DNA of 64,000 nucleotides, taken from Cladosporium sp. IMV 00045. Its lineage: Eukaryota > Ascomycota > Dothideomycetes > Cladosporiales > Cladosporiaceae. The notes beneath the pieces were generated by a model, which was not told the origin of the DNA, did not search any database, and worked only from the letters and a program-made list of their open reading frames with translations. The stretch is taken from positions 31,237 through 95,236 of the forward strand of contig MSJI02000731.1 in assembly GCA_001931905.2 (NCBI GenBank), given 5' to 3'. Positions 7,829 to 19,337 of this stretch are shown piece after piece (position 1 is the first letter of the stretch; each line of letters begins with the position of its first letter). Position numbers and translations under genes: made by a program.

Positions 7829-8724
7829 TTTTGGATGTGCGTGTGGTTCGTTGGTGGCTCGTGTGTGCTTCTCTTGTGATTATATCGTTCAATGCCTTGG
7901 CAGCGCGCCTTGCTCACGCTGCCTCGTTCGGCACAACTTTACTGAGACATTGCTTCCTGCTCTTTTAATCCAGTAATAATGTGTAGTGAAGGCTGTTGAG
8001 TCGGTCCAGCGGTGAGTCAATGCGCCACTGAAGCCGTGCGGTGTTTGTTAAGAAGCGAGTCGGCGCCCGTAGAGATCCAGATGCAGAAAGTCCGGCAAGC
8101 AAAGAGACTCGTAATACGTGCAGTCGTGTGTTGTGGGATTGGTATGTGGTTGATTTAGTGTTGCAAGCAAGGTGTCTTGTGATGATTTCCGCTGCAAAAT
8201 CTCGCCCCCGCAGTCCCTCTCTCTCGCTTTCTGCATGTTCGGTGGGGAATTCACTTCAGTCAGAGTTCATGGCACGTGCCATTTGCATACGTCAATTTAT
8301 GAAACCACCGACCTTCCGCAAGTGTGCAAAATGGAACGAGGGATTCTGGTTTTCTCACATACCAAAGTCATTAATATAGTGGGAAAATTTTTCTGTTCGT
8401 TGTAAGCCGATAACACGGAAAGAAATCAAATCAAAGCTCAAACCAGGCAAAAAAGCCAGCGAACCTTTGAAGCATGCTCTGCAGACCCTGAAAAATAGAT
8501 ATGTTGGAATAGTTGAATCAAGATGGACATCTCTTGAGTTACCGCATCGTTTGACTCTTTCATAGCATCGCCATACAGGAACAGTAGCCACAATTGATGA
8601 GAAGAGTTAAATTTCAGAAACGATCGCTCATGAAAGACTTCGATGCTTTCAACCAAGCGATGATTAAGATGCTACCAGGGGTATCTGTACTAAAAGCAAA
8701 GAAGAAACGCCACGCTAAACTTTT
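7829..8724. other. Intergenic region upstream of LOS1 / downstream of TFIIIA-like gene
   Basis: 896 bp holding the LOS1 promoter (left part) and the 3' flank of the zinc-finger gene (right part). A perfect 10-bp palindrome, ggcacgtgcc, lies at 8271-8280. It contains CACGTG, the core bound by bHLH regulators. Nothing else with coding character is seen. Confidence 0.45.
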
Positions 8725-10485
8725 TCACATCCCAGACAAAGCTGGATCGATAGCATCCTCGCCCATGCCCGTATCTTGCACCGCGTGGGGCTGCAGGAAA
8801 TCCCCCAAGCCATTGCCCACGACCGGCGGCATCATCTGATCGTGGTTCTGTTTCTCGAGCTGAAGGCCTTCGACCAAACGACGCCTCAGCTCGCGGTCTT
8901 CCTCTGCTTCCAACTCTTCACCTCCACCGATCCAGAACTTGCCGCCTTCGTGTGCCTCTCGCTCGACCAGAGCGTCGTTGAAATCGTCGATGTTCCATTC
9001 GTGGACCATGTCCATGTGCGTTTCGAGGTCGCCGTTGCGCATGAAGCGTTGCGGACATGAACTTTCCAAACAAGCGATGGGGCGGTCTTTCTCGTAGCCG
9101 TACCCGGTGAGTAGCGAGGCAGCATCTTCCATCTTCTTGACCGCAGGAGACCGGACTCGACTACCTGGGGGTTTGCTCTTCTGGCCGGGCCTGGAGGTTC
9201 CTGGTAGATTCAAGTGCTGAGTGCGGACATGCTCTTCCAGGTTGGCCTTGGTGCCGAAACTGTAGCCACAGCCCTGGCCGTTCCAGCCTTCCGTCTTTTT
9301 ACTCTTGCTCAGATCAAATTGACCACAGATAAATTTCTTCGTCTTGGCGTGTACTGTTTGGATGTGCACTTTCATGTTACCAGCTTTGGTAAACTTCCTA
9401 CCGCATCCCGGTTCTGGACACTCGAACCGCTGGCGGTCGGTCAAAGAGGAATGCTCAATATCCATGTGTGCCACCAGAGCTCGATTGGTCTCGCAAGCCT
9501 TCCCGCAGGTACTGCAGGTTGGAGGGTGAACGATCTTGATGTGGGTTTGAAGCTCCGCGTAGGACGAAAAGCCGACTTGCGAGCTCTGCAATGACATTGC
9601 GTCGTCGACATCGTCCATGGCAGCATCCTCGTCATTTCCAGTCGGTGCACAAATCTGGCAGAAGTAACGCGCCCCAGAATGACAGCGTGCCTCGTGCGCC
9701 TTGAGCTGTCTCGGATTGGCGAAGGTTTGCCCGCACTCTTCAGCCTGGTCATCGTCCATTTCACCAATCTCCACATGGGTGCACCTGAAAGCCTTCTCGT
9801 TCAAATGGACCGACTTGATGTGCCTCTGCAGAGTTTCCTGTTTCCTGAACTCTTTCCCACACTCCTGACAGCGAGTCTGTTCCTTCTCTTCGTGCATGGC
9901 CATATGTCTGCGAAGCCTCGTGGCAGTATGAAAGCCTTTCCCACATTGCTCTTTCTGGTCGTTTTCAGCGTTGTGAATCTCGTATGTGCATACATAGCTG
10001 CGCTCATCGTTGTGTTTGGCCTTGATGTGAGCTTTGAGGTGCTCGTTGCGTAAGAAGCTCTTGTCGCAGCCTTCCTCCGTGCATGGAAATGGTCTCTCGT
10101 TGGTGTGGGAGCGAATGTGCATCTGAAGGCGGATGGGACGGTCAAAGGCCTTGTCGCAGCCTTCGTACGTGCATTTGAAGTTCTTTGCTCGCTTGGAGCT
10201 GGATGCCGAGGTGACCGATGTCCCAGCGACGGATTCGGCACGTTCGGTGCCAGGCGGAGAATCTTGCGAAGAAGGAGTACTTGCGAGTGTAGGAGTGGCT
10301 ATATCTTCTATCGGTGATCTGCTATCCCATAATCCACCGGCTTCATGTTGTTAGTGAGATGTACGGAAGATTAGTAGCGGTAAGTAGATAGACTGACCTT
10401 CATCCACGCGCTGCTTCTTGGCCGACAGATAGTCGGTCTCAGCAGCCGCAGCCCTTTTCTTCGACATCGCCGCCGCAGACGCCAT
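8725..10485 (-). CDS. TFIIIA-like C2H2 protein with ten zinc fingers
   Basis: Probable 5S rRNA gene transcription factor (TFIIIA), which binds the internal control region of 5S genes to recruit TFIIIC and Pol III. Exon 1 is 10485-10398, a 57-nt intron follows, and exon 2 is 10340-8725, giving 567 residues. After a disordered N-terminus with an SSSKRAKN basic patch there are ten C2H2 fingers. They begin CTYEGCDKAFDRPIRLQMH and end CLESSCPQRFMRNGDLETH. The first two have the regular TFIIIA linker HTNERPFPC. Fingers 3, 5 and 9 have very long cysteine-cysteine loops (about 14-18 residues). A long acidic C-terminus follows. The neighbour RPB6 is divergent. TFIIIA is inferred from finger number and spacing; another multi-finger regulator is less likely. 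Confidence 0.82.
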
Positions 10486-10820
10486 GTCTGGGAAACATGC
10501 AAAACGAGTCTGGACGAAACTAGGACTGCTCACGTGTCGAAACCAAATAAATATCTAATGCAACTTTTGTGATCGCGAGACCCTTGGCCGGTGTGGAGAA
10601 AAAGTAGCGGCTAGATCCGACCAGATCCGCGCTAGCGCCAAATGCAAGTTTAGAGGTCGCGCGCCGTCTTTCGAGAAATGTTGCTAAGAAGGCTTTCACA
10701 TGCAAAACATCCGTCTGTAAATCACCACAACCACCCCGACTCGATCCACCGACATCCATACACGCGCTGAGCGACCAGCGGCCACACTCATTACGAAACT
10801 TCGATACATCACAGTTCAAC
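10486..10820. promoter_or_regulatory. Divergent promoter region TFIIIA-like / RPB6
   Basis: 335 bp between two outward-facing start codons, so a shared bidirectional promoter. It contains a CACGTG core at about 10532. No TATA box is obvious. Confidence 0.5.
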
Positions 10821-11490
10821 ATGTCTGACTACGGCGGCGAGGATGAGCCCATGGACTACGCCATGGGAGAGTGCGCCTCCCCGTCGCGCATACGAGCGCA
10901 GGATCTTCGTCACTAACACAGCCTACAGGGAGAACGACGACAATCTCATCGACGAAAACGATCTCGTGGAGCAGGACTACGACGGACCCAACGATGGCGA
11001 AGCGAACGGAGATGTGGACCAGGACGACATGAACAACATCGTGGCGAGTGGGGATATCACGGCACAAGAAAAAGCGGCCAAGTCGCTCAATACTGTCAAG
11101 GGCGTCAAGGATAAGAAGATCGCGAACGAGAACCGCAGCACCACACCTTACATGACCAAGTACGAGAGGGCGAGAGTATTGGGCACTCGTGCGCTGCAGA
11201 TCAGGTATGTCAGGCGCGGTAGAGATTGGAGCTGCTTCTGAGCAGCACAAATGTCGCGACTCTATGCTGATCCCCATTTCAGTATGAATGCGCCTGTGTT
11301 GGTGGACGTGGAGGGCGAGACCGACCCGCTGCAGATCGCCATTAAGGAGCTGAGAGAGAAGAAGATCCCTCTGGTGGTGCGGCGATACCTGCCTGACGGC
11401 TTGTAAGTTGGCGATAACCAATTTTCTTTCTGCGTTTATTGCTAACGTACTTTCAGCTACGAGGACTGGACTTGCGAAGAGCTTCTATAA
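10821..11490 (+). CDS. RPB6: RNA polymerase I/II/III shared subunit RPB6 (Rpo26)
   Basis: A common small subunit of all three nuclear RNA polymerases (ABC23), the omega counterpart that clamps the largest subunit. Four exons, 10821-10870, 10929-11204, 11283-11402 and 11457-11490, join in frame to 159 residues. The N-terminal half is acidic. The conserved core is complete: [22 protein letters not shown], then [39 protein letters not shown], ending [10 protein letters not shown]. Each intron has a consensus donor and acceptor, and the conserved motifs cross every junction. Length and ending are standard for fungal Rpb6. Confidence 0.97.
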
Positions 11491-12296
11491 GCGACGCTGT
11501 ATCTTTCCAGAAGCTGTGATACAACTGGATGGACGCTCTACCTCTTGAACATCCCTTCCAAAAATACCTATATCACTAGACCAAAACGATCCGACAAAAA
11601 AAGACAGCGAGGCGTTAGGCGTTAACCATTGGCGCGCCACAGAGGCTGTGTCAGTCTGTACCAACATATTTATGATCAATTCACGAGAATATTCAAAGCC
11701 AGAGGGCTTTTGCGTGGAGTGCATGGTTGGCAATCGACTTGATACCATCTGGAAGTTCTCGTGCTCGGTAGTAGAAGCTTGAATAATTCCAGTCCTACTG
11801 GTGGGAAACGAACCATGGTCTGGCGAACGCATTCATCTGCAGAAAAATGAGCGGACAGCATCGATGCCATTGTGGTCAAAGAATAGCACAAAAACATTAT
11901 TCATCAAAGTGCAAGTTGAATTAGATCATCATGTCCAAATACCCAGGTAGAGGAAATGAATCGCTATATCCGTGAAGACCGGCGAATTAGATTGTCATTC
12001 CCTCCAGCGTGTTGTAGCTTAATTTGGAAGGATGTTCCGGCGGCTGTCTGCCCCGCTGACGTTACGCCTTGAGTCTCTCTCGGTCCAAACAAACTGCCCC
12101 GCCCAAGTCCATGTCAATGCCAACCCGATCCAGGGCTAGACAAGGTATCATGGCAGCAAAAAGGTAAGTAGAGAGCGAGCTTTGGGCGTCTACGACTTCT
12201 TTATCTCTCATCTCGCCTTCCCTTCTTCTTTCAAACACATTCCCTTCTCACTTCTACCCTCCACTCATACAACCACACAGTCTCACCTCCATCATC
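11491..12296. other. Intergenic region RPB6 / S-formylglutathione hydrolase
   Basis: 806 bp. The right end has a pyrimidine-rich leader (cttcccttcttctttc) typical of a fungal promoter and 5' UTR directly before the next ATG. No coding or RNA signal is seen in the rest. Confidence 0.45.
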
Positions 12297-13214
12297 ATGT
12301 CTTTCGAAACAACGGCAACCATCGCCAACTTTGGCGGCAAGCTGCTCAAGCTCGCTCACCAGGTATGGTCACTCATGCAAGGCGGATCTGATAGCCTGTC
12401 AAACATCTATTGACAACACTGCCAGTCCAAAGCCACCACCACCCAGATGAAACTGAACCTCTTCGTTCCCGGCACCGCATCCGCCTCAAAACCCGCTCCC
12501 GTCCTGTTCTACCTCGCCGGCCTGACTTGCACTGGTGACAACGGCGCCGAGAAGGGCTTCTTCCAGGCCGCCGCGGCCAAGCACAACATCGCCGTCGTCT
12601 ACCCTGACACCTCCCCTCGCGGCCTCAACATCCAGGGCGAAGATGAGAGCTACGACTTTGGCAGCGGCGCGGGCTTCTACGTCGACGCCACCAAGGACCC
12701 CTACAGCAAGGGCTACAAGATGTACAGCTACATCACGGACGAGCTGCCTAAGGCGCTTTTCAGCCAGTTCAAAGAGCTCGACGGCTCCCGCGTCTCCATC
12801 ACCGGCCACTCGATGGGCGGCCACGGCGCGCTGACCCTCTTCCTCAAGAACCCGGGCATGTACAAGTCGGTCTCCGCCTTCGCCCCCATTTCCAATCCCA
12901 GCAAGTGCCCGTGGGGCCAGAAGGCTTTCGGCGGCTACTTCGGCGAAGACAAGAAGGAGCAGTGGGCGGCGCACGACGCGACCGAGCTCCTGCCCCAGTT
13001 TCCCGGCGACACGGACATTCTCGTCGACGTCGGCACCGGCGACAACTTCTACAAGCAGGGCCAGCTGCTGCCGGAGAACCTTGAGGAGGCCGCCAAGAAG
13101 GCCGGCAAGGGCGTCAAGGTCCGCTACCAGGACGGCTACGACCACTCGTACTTTTTCATCTCCACTTTCGCCAGCGATCACGTCGAGCACGCCGCGAAGT
13201 ATCTGACCAAGTAG
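12297..13214 (+). CDS. S-formylglutathione hydrolase (esterase D type)
   Basis: Hydrolyses S-formylglutathione to glutathione and formate, the second step of glutathione-dependent formaldehyde detoxification in the cytosol. Exon 1 is 12297-12362 (22 codons), the intron 12363-12425 and exon 2 12426-13214, giving 284 residues, the normal length. The alpha/beta-hydrolase shows the oxyanion region LFYLAGLTCTGDN, the nucleophile elbow GHSMGGHGAL, the SNPSKCPWGQKAFGGYFG signature of the esterase-D family, and the catalytic Asp and His in DVGTGDNFYKQGQL and DGYDHSYFF. The start at 12297 supplies the usual beta-strand MSFETTATIANFGGKL. Confidence 0.96.
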
Positions 13215-13998
13215 TGAGTGTTGGCATTTCCTTGCGTGCTTCCTTGATCAAAGCAGATCTCATCCATTCTATCTATCGCCCTCCCAAGCCAGACTTCCAA
13301 TCACAGAAAGAGAAAAAGACACAAAGGAAGAAAGAATACTGACTGACGACGCCAGGAAAAGCAACGACCGAAACAGGCAACAAAAGCTCTAGGCTCTTGA
13401 CGTGTCTTCCCCGAAAAGAGAAGGAAAGAAAGTCGATAATGCACATATACGAAGGAAATGAAAGAACATGAACACATGACACATTGCCGAAACCCCTCAA
13501 AAAGTCAATCTATCTTCAACGCAATGGGATGAAGACAATTACATTGCAAAATCGAGAGCTCCTGCAAGACCACTCGCACATTACAAGCTTTGAACCTCAT
13601 CGATGTTTGCTACTAGCAATGCCTACTCACCGTTGGCCAAAGAGTAATAGCCATACCTGAGTCACACCTCCACTGTCACATCGTGTTCAAGCTTACAGCA
13701 TTCACTCTCTCTACGCATCTGGTGGTCACTCGTTTACACCAGTGACTCAATATGTTAGATTGGAGGGATATATTCTTCTATGTTGCAAGTTATGGCCCTT
13801 TAAAAAGACTGAATACCTTGCCTTGGATCGTACATGGAGCCTTGCACTATCGCCGACTATCTGGCGTCACAACGGCACTAGCAGGACTGCATCAGGTTGA
13901 GTTTTCCGTGGTGATTCTCTGAGACGTTTCCAGCACGTCAGCACCCAAATATGCGCCAGCATACCTTGAACGGTTCTGCCTATGGCGGCCATTCATGG
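13215..13998. other. Intergenic region between S-formylglutathione hydrolase and GGDEF relic
   Basis: 784 bp. It holds the 3' flank of the esterase gene, with A-rich tracts near 13310-13500. No further gene or repeat was recognised. Confidence 0.4.
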
Positions 13999-15067
13999 TC
14001 ATTTTTCAAGCGAAACCGAAGATTGCGGTCTTGCCGGGGCGGCGACGACACAATTACGGCCATCGGACTTGGCCTGGTAGAGCGCCTGGTCCGCGGCCAG
14101 AAGGAGATCTGTGGGGATTTGCACGCTGCTGTCGGCAAGCGACGCTACGCCCATGGAGATTGTGGCCATCAAGGCGTTGCCATTGTCGCCCAAGTCGGTG
14201 TGTTCCATTCTGGAGCGTAGACGTTCTGCTAGTTCCATGGCGTTGGCGAGGTTCGTGTGTGGCAACAAGATGCAGAACTCGTCGCCCGCGTACCGAATGA
14301 CCATGTCCGTATCGCGCACGCCGCTGCGCAGCAACTCGCCCATTCGACGAAGCACGCGGCTGCCGAACAAGTGGTCATGCTCATCATTGACGAGTTTGAA
14401 GTGGTCGAGGTCCAGTATTATCACCGACAAGTCTTGGGCTGTAGCGTTGCGAGCGATGGAACTCTTCGTCGAGGCGCGTAGAGAGGAAACGCTGATTGTA
14501 CAGACCAGTGGCTTCGTCGGTGAGCGTGAGCTTTTCGAGGTGCTCGTTGGCCTTTTGTAGCTGCGCGGTGCGCTCCGCCACTTTGGCCTCCAGGTATTGA
14601 GTTGTATCCTCGTCCGCGATAGGCATCTTCGTGAGAGTTTCGCGCTCTTTCTCCGTCAAGGCAGCTATGTGAAGCCGTTGATGTTTGACTGTTTTCAACT
14701 CGGTCGTGGCCGCCTCTGAATCAGCAAACATTTCTGGCCGCAACGAATCTAACAGACGGCCAATATATGCATGTTCATTATTGGGTTTTGCGAGACGTAC
14801 GTTGAGTCTCCACTCTGACCCCAAACAGAACACTCCAGCTACGACCCGTTGATTGCCATTGTGCGCCGCGGATCATATCGTATTTGTGAAATTGATGATG
14901 CGCTGAGATTCGCCCATCGCCGTGACGTGTGAGCGTCCATCATCGGAAGCAAAGGCAATTCGAGACTGCTGCATAAGGTACATATGATTCAGCACTGCTC
15001 CATGCTTGATCAAGCACTTCAGCAAGCAGCCAGTCAATTGCGCATCACACGGCTGGTCAATGATTTG
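13999..15067 (-). pseudogene. Decayed GGDEF (diguanylate cyclase) gene of bacterial type
   Basis: On the minus strand, 15067-14876 reads as plausible protein (HGAVLNHMYLMQQSRIAFAS) up to an in-frame TGA at 14875-14873. The same frame continues to about 14440 with a charged helical linker (LEAKVAERTAQLQKANEHLEKL) and the opening of a GGDEF domain (LTDEATGLYNQRFL). There the frame breaks. The domain resumes one frame over from 14430 as LSVIILDLDHFKLVNDEHDH, followed by VRDTDMVIRYAGDEFCILLP, and stops at 13999. The catalytic signature is AGDEF rather than GGDEF. The RxxD inhibitory site five residues before it is kept (RDTD). GGDEF enzymes make cyclic di-GMP in bacteria and are not a normal part of fungal genomes. 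A relic of horizontal transfer is the simplest reading. A chimeric assembly join is the main alternative, though fungal genes flank it closely. Confidence 0.85.
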
Positions 15068-15788
15068 TTAAGCGGCAATCTATTGCGCGCTGCCGTTGGA
15101 ATGATACTGCCGCATGGGTAAGGGCGGAGAAGGCTACCTTATTTATTAGGCTCGGTAGGATGTCTGCCTTCTGTCCGAGCCGATTCCGTTCATTGCAGCA
15201 TCATCATTAGCCGAAATCCCAGATCCTGCTACAGATCGGCACCTTGTGCGTCTACCACAAGGGTGACTATCTGGGAATGCCGCCTGTTGTATGTTTTTTT
15301 TGTCGGTTTTTGCTTTCCAGTAATCATCAACGTTTGTTCTTTTCTTGGGTGAAATACCATGTTGATAACGCAAACGGCTGAGCTTCGATTGTTGCGAGGT
15401 ACATGTAGGGTCGACTGGGCATTGCCTGGGGTGTTGTCAGGCATACATACTACTTGGAGTCATCTATGAGTTGCGATGCGTGACGGAACACAAGATAGAG
15501 CGTGAGTAAAGATGGAAGGGTTAATGTAGATTAGAATCGGCGAGAAAGCCAGACTGGTTCAGGCTATTACTACCTGCGGTTGAGTGTAATGTGAAAAGAC
15601 TAAATGATAACGTAAAAACCCAACAGGTCAGAAAGGACAGCGATAAGAAAAGAAGAGAAAGAGAAAAAGTCAGCACTTGACTTTTCTTGTATCCATCCAA
15701 AGGACTGACGCTCGACCTTTGCCTCCCAACTTCGAACCAGAAAGTGAAAGAATGGCTGGAAAGGTAAGACCAAGAGCATGAACGCAGC
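15068..15788. other. Intergenic region, no gene seen
   Basis: 721 bp between the GGDEF relic and the next gene's 3' end. Stop codons are frequent in all frames, and no bacterial-like protein sequence was recognised beyond the relic. The 3' flank near 15640-15670 is A/G-rich. Confidence 0.4.
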
Positions 15789-17073
15789 TCACCAAATCAA
15801 TAAGTGAAAAGCCATGAGCGCCAAAGAAACCAAGCCCAACAGAGAAGCGCCCTCGCCGCTCTTGCTGTATAGCATCGACAACGAACGTGCAGCACCGCTA
15901 ACAGCAACGCCCGCCTCGACAAACCCCGGCCCGCAACTCATATGCACCATCTGCGCGGCCTGGGCATAATCGCCGCGGAGAGGCTTCTGACTATCCCCCG
16001 CAGCCGCGGCAAAAATCGCCATCGTATCCTGCAAACACTCCGTGCAAGCCGGGCGCGTGCCGGCGGGCAGCTGCATGCCAAGGGGGATCCAGTAGATGTA
16101 GCTGCTGGTCGGGGCGGAAGCGTTGGCGACGGCGTCGGCGTAGCAGTAGTTGCCCGTCGACTGGGAGGTGAGGCAGGCGGCTTGGTAGAGGGTGTCGTAG
16201 GCCATAAGGCCCGTGTAGGCCTGCGAGGCGAGCGGGTTTTGCAGGTCGAGGTCGTTTTTGCACGCGGTTTGCGAGAGTTGCGTGGCCAGGCTGGACATGA
16301 GCGCGCTGCAGGCGGGGTAGCTGGGGAGGTGGCAGGTGGCGTCCAGGGTGCGGATTAGGGAGAGGGGGGATTGGATTGTTGCGAAGAAGGAGTTGGATGT
16401 CTGGGTGGGATGATTAGTTTGGTTGAAGGAGGTTTGGGATTTCGGGGTTGGGGCTTACTTGGAGGAGAAGAGAAAACGGAAGACATTCTTGGAAGGTGGT
16501 GTTTGTTAGGAAGTCGTTGAAAAATTCTGGACATGATGGTTCGGTGAAATTATTGCCTAAGCTGGAGTCGAAAGGTCTTGGGAGAGATGTTGATATTGGG
16601 GTTGCAGTTTCGATTGTCGATTGCGTGACGGATGAAGTTGAAGATGGTGCAGGGATTCCGGATGGTCCTGTGGATGCTGCAGACGAGATACTGTGGTCAT
16701 CTTGTCGGGCATAGATCCCCATGCCCATGCGAGGCTTTGGTGCGGGCCGGCGGTCATATACAAGTTCGCGGTCGAAGATGCTGGATCCCTGCAAGTTGGC
16801 CTGCACGCTCTGGCAGAAGAACAGCACAACGCACAGCAGGGCTAATATCAACCTCTGGGCGTTTGCCCATGGTCGACTGGTCCGACGAAGTTGGCTGAGA
16901 CAATTTGATGATGGATCACGCTGGGGTCTGGGTTTGTGACACAAGGCGTCCGTATGCACATTCCGGTCGGCACTGGTCCCCCGCCATGGATCGTGTTGTC
17001 GTACGACAGCGGGTGAGAAGCGTGCGGGCTTGCATCTGTTGGGTTGAGACGCGCAAGTCGTCGGTGGTGTCAT
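15789..17073 (-). CDS. DUF7729-type secreted or GPI-anchored fungal surface protein
   Basis: Function unknown. Exon 1 (17073-16459), a 58-nt intron and exon 2 (16400-15789) give about 408 residues. A hydrophobic segment LILALLCVVLFFC near residues 74-92 should be a signal anchor or late signal peptide. A Ser/Thr-rich stretch follows, then a cysteine-rich domain with SCPEFFNDFLTNTTFQECLP, LDATCHLPSYPACSALM, YCYADAVANAS and PACTECLQDTMAIFAA, as I remember for the fungal DUF7729 family. The C-terminus SLLGLVSLALMAFHLLIW is hydrophobic after a small-residue stretch, suggesting a GPI-anchor signal. The frame stays open upstream of 17073 but without another ATG, so the true start, or a further 5' exon, is uncertain. 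Confidence 0.75.
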
Positions 17074-19337
17074 CGCACCGCTAGCTCGTGTGCCGGGCGT
17101 GTCTGTCGCATGACAGGTCGTGGATGAGTTGTCCAGGGTTGGTTTGGTGAATGAGAGTCCGGTGGATTTAGTGGGAGAATGCAATCTCTCGAGACGCGAT
17201 GATGATGGATGAAAGGCTTGTGTTCCTTTCTTCAGTCTTGGATGCCAAAGGTGGAAGTCTTTATCGAATGTCGATCCCGTAATCTAGAATCCAGGTGACC
17301 CAAGACCAGTCCCTTGCAGCACGAGGCGAAGGCTCGGCAACGGCCCGGTTGTTGATCTGGTATAGCCGTTGGAATCCTGGAGATAGCAGGGTGGAGAGAA
17401 GAATCGAGAAGAAGACAGGTGAAGATCACGGATAGGGCAGCAATGGTGAAGGAAATGAGGATGTGCGGTGAGATTGACGATATAAAGAAAAAGGTGAGGA
17501 GAGAAGCTTTGCCTAATGCATGGGGAGCAAATAGACGTAGTAGTGTAGCTGAACTCGCCCGGCGCCACGCAGCTATATGGCGCGATAGTGAGCGCCACGC
17601 ATTGCTTTGGGGCTACATGCGAGCAGTGTGGGAAAGGGCATCACAGTAGTGCAAAGTGGTGCTGCGATAGTAATAATTGGACACCCATCGGAAACAGACG
17701 AGCCAGGCCCGCCAGGAACGGGCATGGGGGGCATAGCAACATCGCTTGGGCATAATACGCCGCTCCAGTCGGCAAATGGCACCTGCGTGAACAGCAGAGA
17801 TGCAGCAGTCTTGGCCCTGTCGGACAGGTGCGCGCAGAGAGAAGAAGCAGGCAGCGTGATTGTCGAATTATTGGCAGCGAGTGGTGAAGGTGTGGACGGG
17901 CAATAATGCTGGCGATGGGGGCACAGATCAGCGTGGATGCATGGCTTTTGCCCAATCCGGCCATGCAAGATTCACCTCCGCCGGTCTCTTGTCTAGTGCA
18001 TCCTGCTGCGCCCTTCTGGACCGCGCCCCATGGATATTATTGAATCGCCCTTCAAATGAAGCCCACACCCTCTCAAGCCTGCCCTCTTTGTGTCGGTTTG
18101 TTTTGTCGTCTCTGGGCCGGTCGCACTACTGTCGCATGACCCTTATAAACTGCCTTTCTCCCCTCAACGATTAAGCTCTCGCGAAAAGATGCTCCGAACA
18201 GCCCTCCTCACCTCATCCGAAAGCTACCAGGCTCAGCTCGAGCAAAGCAATAAAGCCACTGCCGGCCTGCCGTCCACTCTATTGGTGCTCGGCGAATGTC
18301 AAGGGTGTCGCCCTCCGTGCCTGATCCCAAAAGGAGAAGCCAGGAGTTGCATTATCGGCGGTAGTACCGTCTCTGCCCTATAAGGTGTGAGATTACCCTT
18401 GCAGGCCAGTCCTTGTGATGCCTATGGTTGTTTGTCGTCGCTAAAACATGCGCATTCATCGCTGGAGGTGCTGTCTGTATGGCTGCACGTCTTGCATGTC
18501 ATATATGATAGATCCGTCTCGTATTCATGCGCTATCCTCATCTGAGGATTTTGTCTTATCAATCTGTGAAGTTGTCGATGTAGTGGGTGTTACTGTCTAC
18601 CCTACCGCCTCTCCATCATTCGCTAGCTACTCAAAGAGCTCAACGAGCAGAAGGCGAAACCGAGTATTTTCAGAAGCATTGAGATCTTCATGTGATGAAA
18701 CATCGAGTGATGACAGATGGTGCGGTTCACTTACTAATGCGAGCAAGTACTGTAATGTCGGTCGATTTGAAACGTGATCCTTGGGACTAAACCGATCGTT
18801 GAACGAGTCTTTGATCGTGTTACAGCTTTGGACGCTTCGGCAACAGAATGCCAGGATCAGTCTCTGGATGCGATGAATTGACCTTGGAAAACGTTCCCAT
18901 GAGCATGAGAGCAGATGACGAATAAGTCAGTATTGACTGTCACTCATGACCTCTTGTCATTGCATAAGGTATGTAAGCATACCTGCCTGTGTCGCGATTG
19001 CTTGAGGAAAATCGATTTGCGGCCTGAGGCAATCATGATGCCTTGAAATGAGCTCTTTGGTGTTCGCCCGCAACGCGCTCTCTTTACGCGGAGGGCGCGA
19101 CGGGAGCTCTGGACTTTCGGAACTTCACAAGCGTCAAAGACGCCCGTCTCTCCAACCTCATCATCGCCTTCACTCAGACAACTCACTCGCTTAATATAAT
19201 CCAGCAGCCACTACCTGTCGTAGCGACCAACCTTTCGACTTGACAAATACAAATCATCACCAACTCCCCGCCCTCTCGAGCGACACTCACCATCTGAACT
19301 AGGCGCACCGGCGCAACAATCCACAGACTTATTCACC
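17074..19337. other. Long intergenic region, no gene recognised
   Basis: About 2.26 kb between a minus-strand gene start and the plus-strand POB3 start, so it includes two promoters. Several open frames of 70-130 codons exist, but none has recognisable motifs or continues across plausible introns. The right end near 19200-19330 is pyrimidine-rich POB3 leader sequence. Confidence 0.4.

Follow-up and report, generated by a model that had tools for sequence, protein, structure and literature searches.

A bacterial GGDEF gene fragment of probable Hypr type captured in the chromosome of a Cladosporium-like fungus

How did a gene of bacterial GGDEF type come to lie, broken, between two fungal genes in a Cladosporium genome, which bacteria supplied it, and what would its enzyme have made? 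We addressed these questions in a stretch of 64,000 nucleotides (the window), bases 31237-95236 of contig C728 in an assembly of 49.87 Mb and 954 contigs. A first-pass annotation had read the locus as a decaying diguanylate cyclase gene with fungal genes on each side, and both neighbours indeed look native. To the left, the open frame of an S-formylglutathione hydrolase gene (12414..13214, plus strand) matches PF00756 (2.1e-51) and TIGR02821 (335.8 bits, cut-off 281.7), and its homeolog shares 97.7% protein identity. To the right lies a DUF7729 gene (15789..17283, minus strand; PF24855), two overlapping open frames that we read as exons, with homeolog identities of 91.9% and 93.4%; the nearest organism-named match of its protein is from Cladosporium fusiforme (86% over 31% of the query). 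The two genes are convergent, with the insert between them. Farther left, the minus strand at 8725-10350 encodes a many-fingered C2H2 protein, 96.7% identical in its homeolog, which we take to resemble transcription factor IIIA.

Comparison with a homeologous contig, C575, revealed the limits of the insert. By blastn, window 8001-13566 corresponds to C575 4832-10442 at 90.1% identity and window 15261-18749 to C575 10825-14393 at 89.1%, with no match between these flanks; across the stretches compared, the two contigs are collinear for 9.1 kb of left flank and 13.1 kb of right flank. Between the flanks the window holds 1,694 bp (13567..15260), in place of 382 bp on C575 (C575:10443-10824). The segment is thus flanked by native DNA and has a homologous counterpart site that lacks it. 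The span originally proposed, 13999-15067, is too short for this extra segment and too long for the bacterial homology inside it (14041-14635). The genome appears to belong to a Cladosporium with two subgenomes, whether hybrid or diploid, whose copies are about 90% identical as judged at this region alone. Its assembly is about double the size usual in Cladosporium, and an SSRP1-like gene of the window has two genomic copies, at 100% and 99%. The ITS on contig C517 likewise reads as that of a Cladosporium, of the sphaerospermum group. Hortaea werneckii, considered because of the two subgenomes, was set aside in view of this ITS and of the DUF7729 match to C. fusiforme; a Hortaea primer, moreover, had no match in the genome at up to one mismatch, which is weak evidence.

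An assembly chimera or bacterial contamination could also put such a gene next to fungal ones, and the GC content of 57.5% in 13999-14640, against 46% in 13215-13998 and 15111-15788, is in keeping with that origin. We nevertheless find this reading very improbable, given that both flanks run collinear with C575 for the distances stated and that the open reading frame of the fragment (P0001) is shared by five contigs, of which the longest, at 44,543 bp, must differ from the 95,236-bp contig of the window. Moreover, the 49.9 Mb genome yields a single GGDEF match, and a plasmid collection holds no similar DNA, although this last is weak evidence. The longest contig listed for the neighbouring DUF7729 reading frame (P0238) also measures 44,543 bp, and the equal size suggests that the two are one contig; the five contigs may derive from reads of one strain. 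The aligned flanks, the segment-free C575 and the five contigs together support the earlier proposal that the gene was transferred into a fungal chromosome and then decayed, and make it well supported that the gene fragment is bacterial DNA captured there, a transfer fossil.

The right-hand junction cuts a 5S rRNA gene. C575 carries an intact 120-bp gene (C575:10740-10859; RF00001, 78.5 bits), 85 bp of which fall inside its 382 bp, while the window keeps the last 35 bp (15261..15295, plus strand; 33/35 identical to positions 86-120 of the intact gene). Rfam accordingly reports no 5S gene in window 12400-17300, where only this 35-bp stub remains. The homeolog's 5S gene is preceded by 302 bp of single-copy sequence, so that the C575 site does not resemble a moved 5S cassette. 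A deletion could not have rebuilt a 5S gene, and the window arrangement is therefore most simply read as derived, on a comparison of two copies within one genome.

Within the segment, bacterial homology occupies 14041-14635 on the minus strand and comprises a coiled coil and a near-complete GGDEF domain in two adjoining frames. PF00990 matches 13999-14655 (minus strand) at 116.8 bits (E 1e-33; curated cut-off 23.8). A profile built from 80 bacterial relatives and searched against all six frames of the insert resolved this match into a first frame holding the coiled-coil linker and the start of the domain (14441..14635, minus strand; profile positions 145-205, 78.7 bits) and a second frame running from the DLDxFK strand to near the C-terminal end (14041..14433, minus strand; profile positions 202-340, 205.5 bits; PF00990), which is closed by a stop codon at 13999..14001 (minus strand). 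The remaining profile matches in the insert did not reach the inclusion threshold (-0.7 and -4.8 bits). By tblastn, the first frame is 63.8% identical over 69 residues to one relative, P0002. These scores bear out the minus-strand helical linker and near-complete GGDEF domain first described from the sequence.

The sole frame change in the homologous stretch (14431..14440, minus strand) falls between SQRY in one frame (14441-14452) and DLS in the other (14425-14433). The adjoining frames miss no residues relative to P0002 and P0003, and the break is therefore a frame change rather than an intron. Of the two lesions claimed at first, this one stands, in the place given for it. The other, a TGA at 14875-14873, does not: similarity to bacterial proteins starts near 14635-14611, no frame of the insert farther upstream matched the family in the six-frame search, and the codon, lying beyond the stretch of recognisable homology, thus cannot be counted as a demonstrated lesion. 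Third-position GC is 0.50 in 14639-14872, against 0.71-0.72 in the homologous part, and two upstream frames, taken as proteins, match only themselves within the genome. We also looked for a receiver domain or another sensor upstream of the coil; neither Pfam, on the upstream frames tried, nor the six-frame family profile found one in the insert.

We then mapped the residues that bear on the enzyme's product. According to PMC6456294, PMC9140294 and PMC8844925, Ser or Thr at the position of PleD D344 defines the Hypr enzymes, which accept both ATP and GTP, and Tyr, Ser, Ala or Gln at a second position accompanies mainly cGAMP. The fragment carries Ser at the first of these, the substrate-specificity position (14359..14361, minus strand; PleD D344, GsGacA S347), where it aligns with the Ser of 6d9m, whereas the canonical enzyme 3ign has Asp there. 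At the cross-dimer selectivity position (14492..14494, minus strand, first frame; GsGacA 303), which is Arg in most canonical enzymes, it carries Gln. Both residues are those expected of a Hypr enzyme. The motifs named in the first-pass annotation are all present, namely LDLDHFK (14395..14415, minus strand), the RxxD inhibitory site, RDTD (14305..14316, minus strand), and, five residues after it, the AGDEF catalytic loop (14275..14289, minus strand).

The same two residues mark the bacterial family. Among its 80 members, the specificity position is Ser in 67, Thr in 13 and Asp in none, and the cross-dimer position is Gln in 80/80; the spacing from Gln to Ser in P0002, 44 residues, equals that from 303 to 347 in GsGacA. 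Both the R and the D of RxxD, the first G of the loop and the D of GGDEF are each present in 80/80. As a control, the best 80 other bacterial GGDEF loci matched by the relative P0003 have Asp (79) or Asn (1) at the specificity position, and Arg (69) or Gln (2) at the cross-dimer position. A further 117 matches listed from the first homology search have 112 Asp and 2 Ser at the specificity position. A motif search of 39 lower profile-search matches listed found 29 Ser and 9 Asp, indicating that the Ser signature reaches somewhat past the 80. The loop of the fragment keeps its central Asp, and its first residue is Ala, as against Gly in 80/80 relatives. A loop with [G/A/S] in first place is counted active in PMC6456294, where natural Ser/Thr enzymes have GGDE[F/Y] only, with Asp in the loop; by that account, the Ala of the fragment is atypical.

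Structural comparisons gave a mixed picture. The best PDB match of the fragment by sequence is 6d9m, the Hypr enzyme GacA of Geobacter, which also ranks first in a fold search with the predicted model (48% identity). The full-length relative P0002, in contrast, matches two c-di-GMP enzymes, DgcR and PleD, better than GacA, with DgcR first (6zxm, 158.7 bits) and GacA tenth (124.3 bits). Yet in the PDB alignments both of these enzymes carry Asp and Arg where selectivity is set, which makes overall similarity a weaker guide than the two residues. An origin from an ordinary diguanylate cyclase gene, with c-di-GMP as product, is, in our judgement, unlikely. Such a reading would agree with the Pfam and NCBIfam domain names, which say diguanylate cyclase, and with the PDB ranking of P0002; sequence, moreover, gives the product without certainty, and Hypr enzymes yield some c-di-GMP too, as stated in PMC9140294. 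It fits poorly with the Gln/Ser pair of the fragment, with Gln beside Ser or Thr throughout the family, with Ser/Thr in 0/80 of the control loci, and with the Asp and Arg of DgcR and PleD. We conclude that the source was a probable Hypr, 3',3'-cGAMP-type GGDEF gene, as judged by its signature residues, and that the original diguanylate cyclase, c-di-GMP label probably names the wrong product. To speak of c-di-GMP in a fungus can therefore mislead, as the two residues point to cGAMP.

We defined the family as the top 80 profile-search matches (P0002, P0003 and P0121-P0198; at least 330 bits), taken from the best 120 of 6,681 in a search whose scoring was limited to the 7,999 candidates with the most shared words. 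The closest proteins over the 141-residue second frame are P0121 (63%), P0123, P0003, P0122 and P0002. With even the nearest bacterial protein only about 63% identical there, the donor is unsampled and the product unproven. In a tree of 110 rows and 141 columns, built by a quick method, the fungal sequence falls inside the bacterial family, with SH-aLRT support of 93 for a group of 83 rows and 89 for a group of 16; no group containing the fungal row reached the star level of 95. The bacterial relatives sought for the translation were thus found, and none of the best 120 of 390 homology-search matches was named as fungal. Viral contigs, compared with alignment A3, gave 80 loci at 24-43% identity.

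Four of the 80 family members are organism-named, all Deltaproteobacteria. Named bacterial genomes, scanned with P0003 for a donor, were set aside, as the Ser/Thr signature is absent from their best 80 loci (all Asp or Asn); the organism of the family consequently rests on the four named proteins. Hypr enzymes have been described in Geobacter, Bdellovibrio and Myxococcus (PMC6456294, PMC9140294 and PMC8844925, the last covering the myxobacterial ones). The donor of the fragment was probably deltaproteobacterial, of myxobacterial type.

With GacA of Geobacter, Bd0367 of Bdellovibrio and GacA/GacB of Myxococcus, the fragment shares the Ser, the non-Arg residue (Gln), the loop Asp and the inhibitory site; it differs in its broken frame, its lack of a sensor or receiver, the Ala at the start of the loop and its place in a fungal chromosome. 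The layout of its bacterial relatives is mostly that of the PleD/DgcR/WspR-type REC-GGDEF cyclases, 75/80 listing the receiver domain PF00072. From these cyclases the fungal copy departs in having no REC domain, and PleD and DgcR have Asp and Arg where it has Ser and Gln. The family behind the fragment therefore looks like a mostly receiver-coupled Hypr group, whose product is directly assayable.

The fragment is only slightly decayed. It changes one of 38 family-invariant positions, the first G of the loop, a count to be set beside leave-one-out changes of 0 in 71 relatives and 1 in 9. At a looser threshold of 97.5%, it changes 3/48 conserved positions versus at most 1 in any relative, so that some loosening is visible. 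There are no stops in 197 codons. When the present sequence was evolved in a neutral simulation of substitutions only, the share of runs with at most one new violation and no stop was 40% at 2% change, 3.9% at 5%, 0.5% at 7.5% and 0.05% at 10%. Third positions of the two neighbouring genes differ by 12-14% between subgenomes, or about 6-7% per lineage if split equally, and adjoining non-coding DNA by 7-16%. Such slight decay beside the divergence of the neighbours suggests that the fragment's period of free drift is probably shorter than the time since the subgenomes separated, either as a young insertion or as one constrained until lately.

A segment older than the split of the parental genomes, and later deleted from the homeologous contig, would leave the same presence and absence today. 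The comparison, confined to two copies of one genome, leaves room for this history, as does another degraded scrap in the patch, whose similarity to a gene elsewhere in the genome is about 87%. We hold it to be improbable: the homeolog's complete 5S gene spans the junction at which the window keeps the last 35 bp, and no deletion could have restored it, while the coding part is little decayed against the third-position divergence of its neighbours.

Could the fragment work in the fungus? With a single lesion, and with a remaining domain that is predicted to fold well (AlphaFold2 model of 14002-14430, mean pLDDT 94.3), the 141-residue second frame might be translated, or splicing or frameshifting might mend the break. 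Both routes are highly improbable, as the frames adjoin within a conserved stretch, leaving no room for an intron, and the second frame alone lacks both the coiled coil and the first domain helix with its selectivity Gln. Searches of the genome for EAL and PilZ, two usual c-di-GMP partners, also gave no match. With its frame broken and EAL and PilZ missing, the fragment is most likely without function in the fungus. A past use is a separate matter. One parental lineage might have acquired a bacterial cGAMP synthase and used it for a time, the copy dying recently and intact copies surviving in sibling species. The slight decay (1/38, no stop) is compatible with that history, which would give a eukaryote with a bacterial-type Hypr enzyme; a young insertion explains the decay equally well, and we rate the past use as quite improbable.

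Besides the gene fragment, the patch contains two short stretches with matches elsewhere in the genome. A degenerate scrap at 13817..13877 (plus strand) resembles part of a fungal TRK potassium-transporter gene (87% to G000:C823:90929-90988, E 2.6e-10); it aligns with frame-breaking gaps, and its C823 match lies in a reading frame just upstream of an exon scoring as TrkH (285.3 bits). A short palindromic repeat at 14991..15039 has one other genomic match (86% over 49 bp, C918:41734-41782, E 1e-7). Beyond these two, 13560-14000 and 14640-15262 gave no further genomic match. Downstream of the TRK transporter gene sits a 28-bp scrap like the 3' end of a 5S gene (L092 2714-2741, C823:92213-92240; 25/28 against the homeolog's 5S gene). 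The 61-bp C823 match, with this 5S-like scrap 1.2 kb on, raised the idea of a mobile element targeting 5S genes. We rejected it, as the C823 match lies inside the TRK gene and the only other repeat in the segment is the 49-bp palindrome. Scraps of mixed origin in one patch, together with the local loss of DNA, fit filler DNA and suggest a break repaired in that way.

Taken together, it is likely that a deltaproteobacterial Hypr fragment was captured at a break in a two-subgenome Cladosporium-like fungus and is now a pseudogene, young relative to the divergence of the subgenomes. The donor would be a deltaproteobacterial, probably myxobacterial-type, Hypr GGDEF gene, of which the coil and cyclase part would have entered one parental lineage without the receiver domain. 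It would have arrived within a patch of 1.7 kb that took the place of 0.38 kb and truncated the 5S rRNA gene between the convergent genes, and the TRK-like scrap in that patch points to a chromosome break repaired with filler DNA. The intact bacterial enzyme would have formed a dimer via its coiled coil and converted GTP and ATP to 3',3'-cGAMP, with some c-di-GMP; in the fungus, frame-broken and lacking the EAL and PilZ partners, it would most likely be inactive.

GGDEF-domain sequences occur in another eukaryote, Dictyostelium, whose DgcA is functional and makes c-di-GMP; the fungal copy, in contrast, is a single-locus pseudogene. Bacterial DNA has also been captured as relics in fungal nuclear genomes. 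Like those relics, this one is a decaying foreign fragment between native genes; unlike them, it has an unoccupied homeologous site in the same genome and a break that cut a 5S rRNA gene. In the literature joining GGDEF with fungi, ascomycetes or Hortaea, or Hortaea with horizontal gene transfer, we found no account of a fungal GGDEF gene among the matches listed. The locus offers a cleanly bounded bacterium-to-fungus capture, in which a segment-free site in the same genome and a cut 5S gene point to the derived arrangement.

Two further observations concern the ribosomal genes of this genome. The 5S genes appear to be scattered through it (among other places at L090 6241-6360, L093, L094 and L095). 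Outside C728 and C575, the gene's 3' part, as in the window stub, recurs at 37 places, and full-length genes are present in C575 and in all three of these places that were inspected. One rDNA copy (L108, G000:C220:35200-36700) differs from another (L107, C517:19400-20258) at 33/492 aligned sites, and every difference is either G>A (18 sites) or C>T (15 sites), as expected from repeat-induced point mutation.
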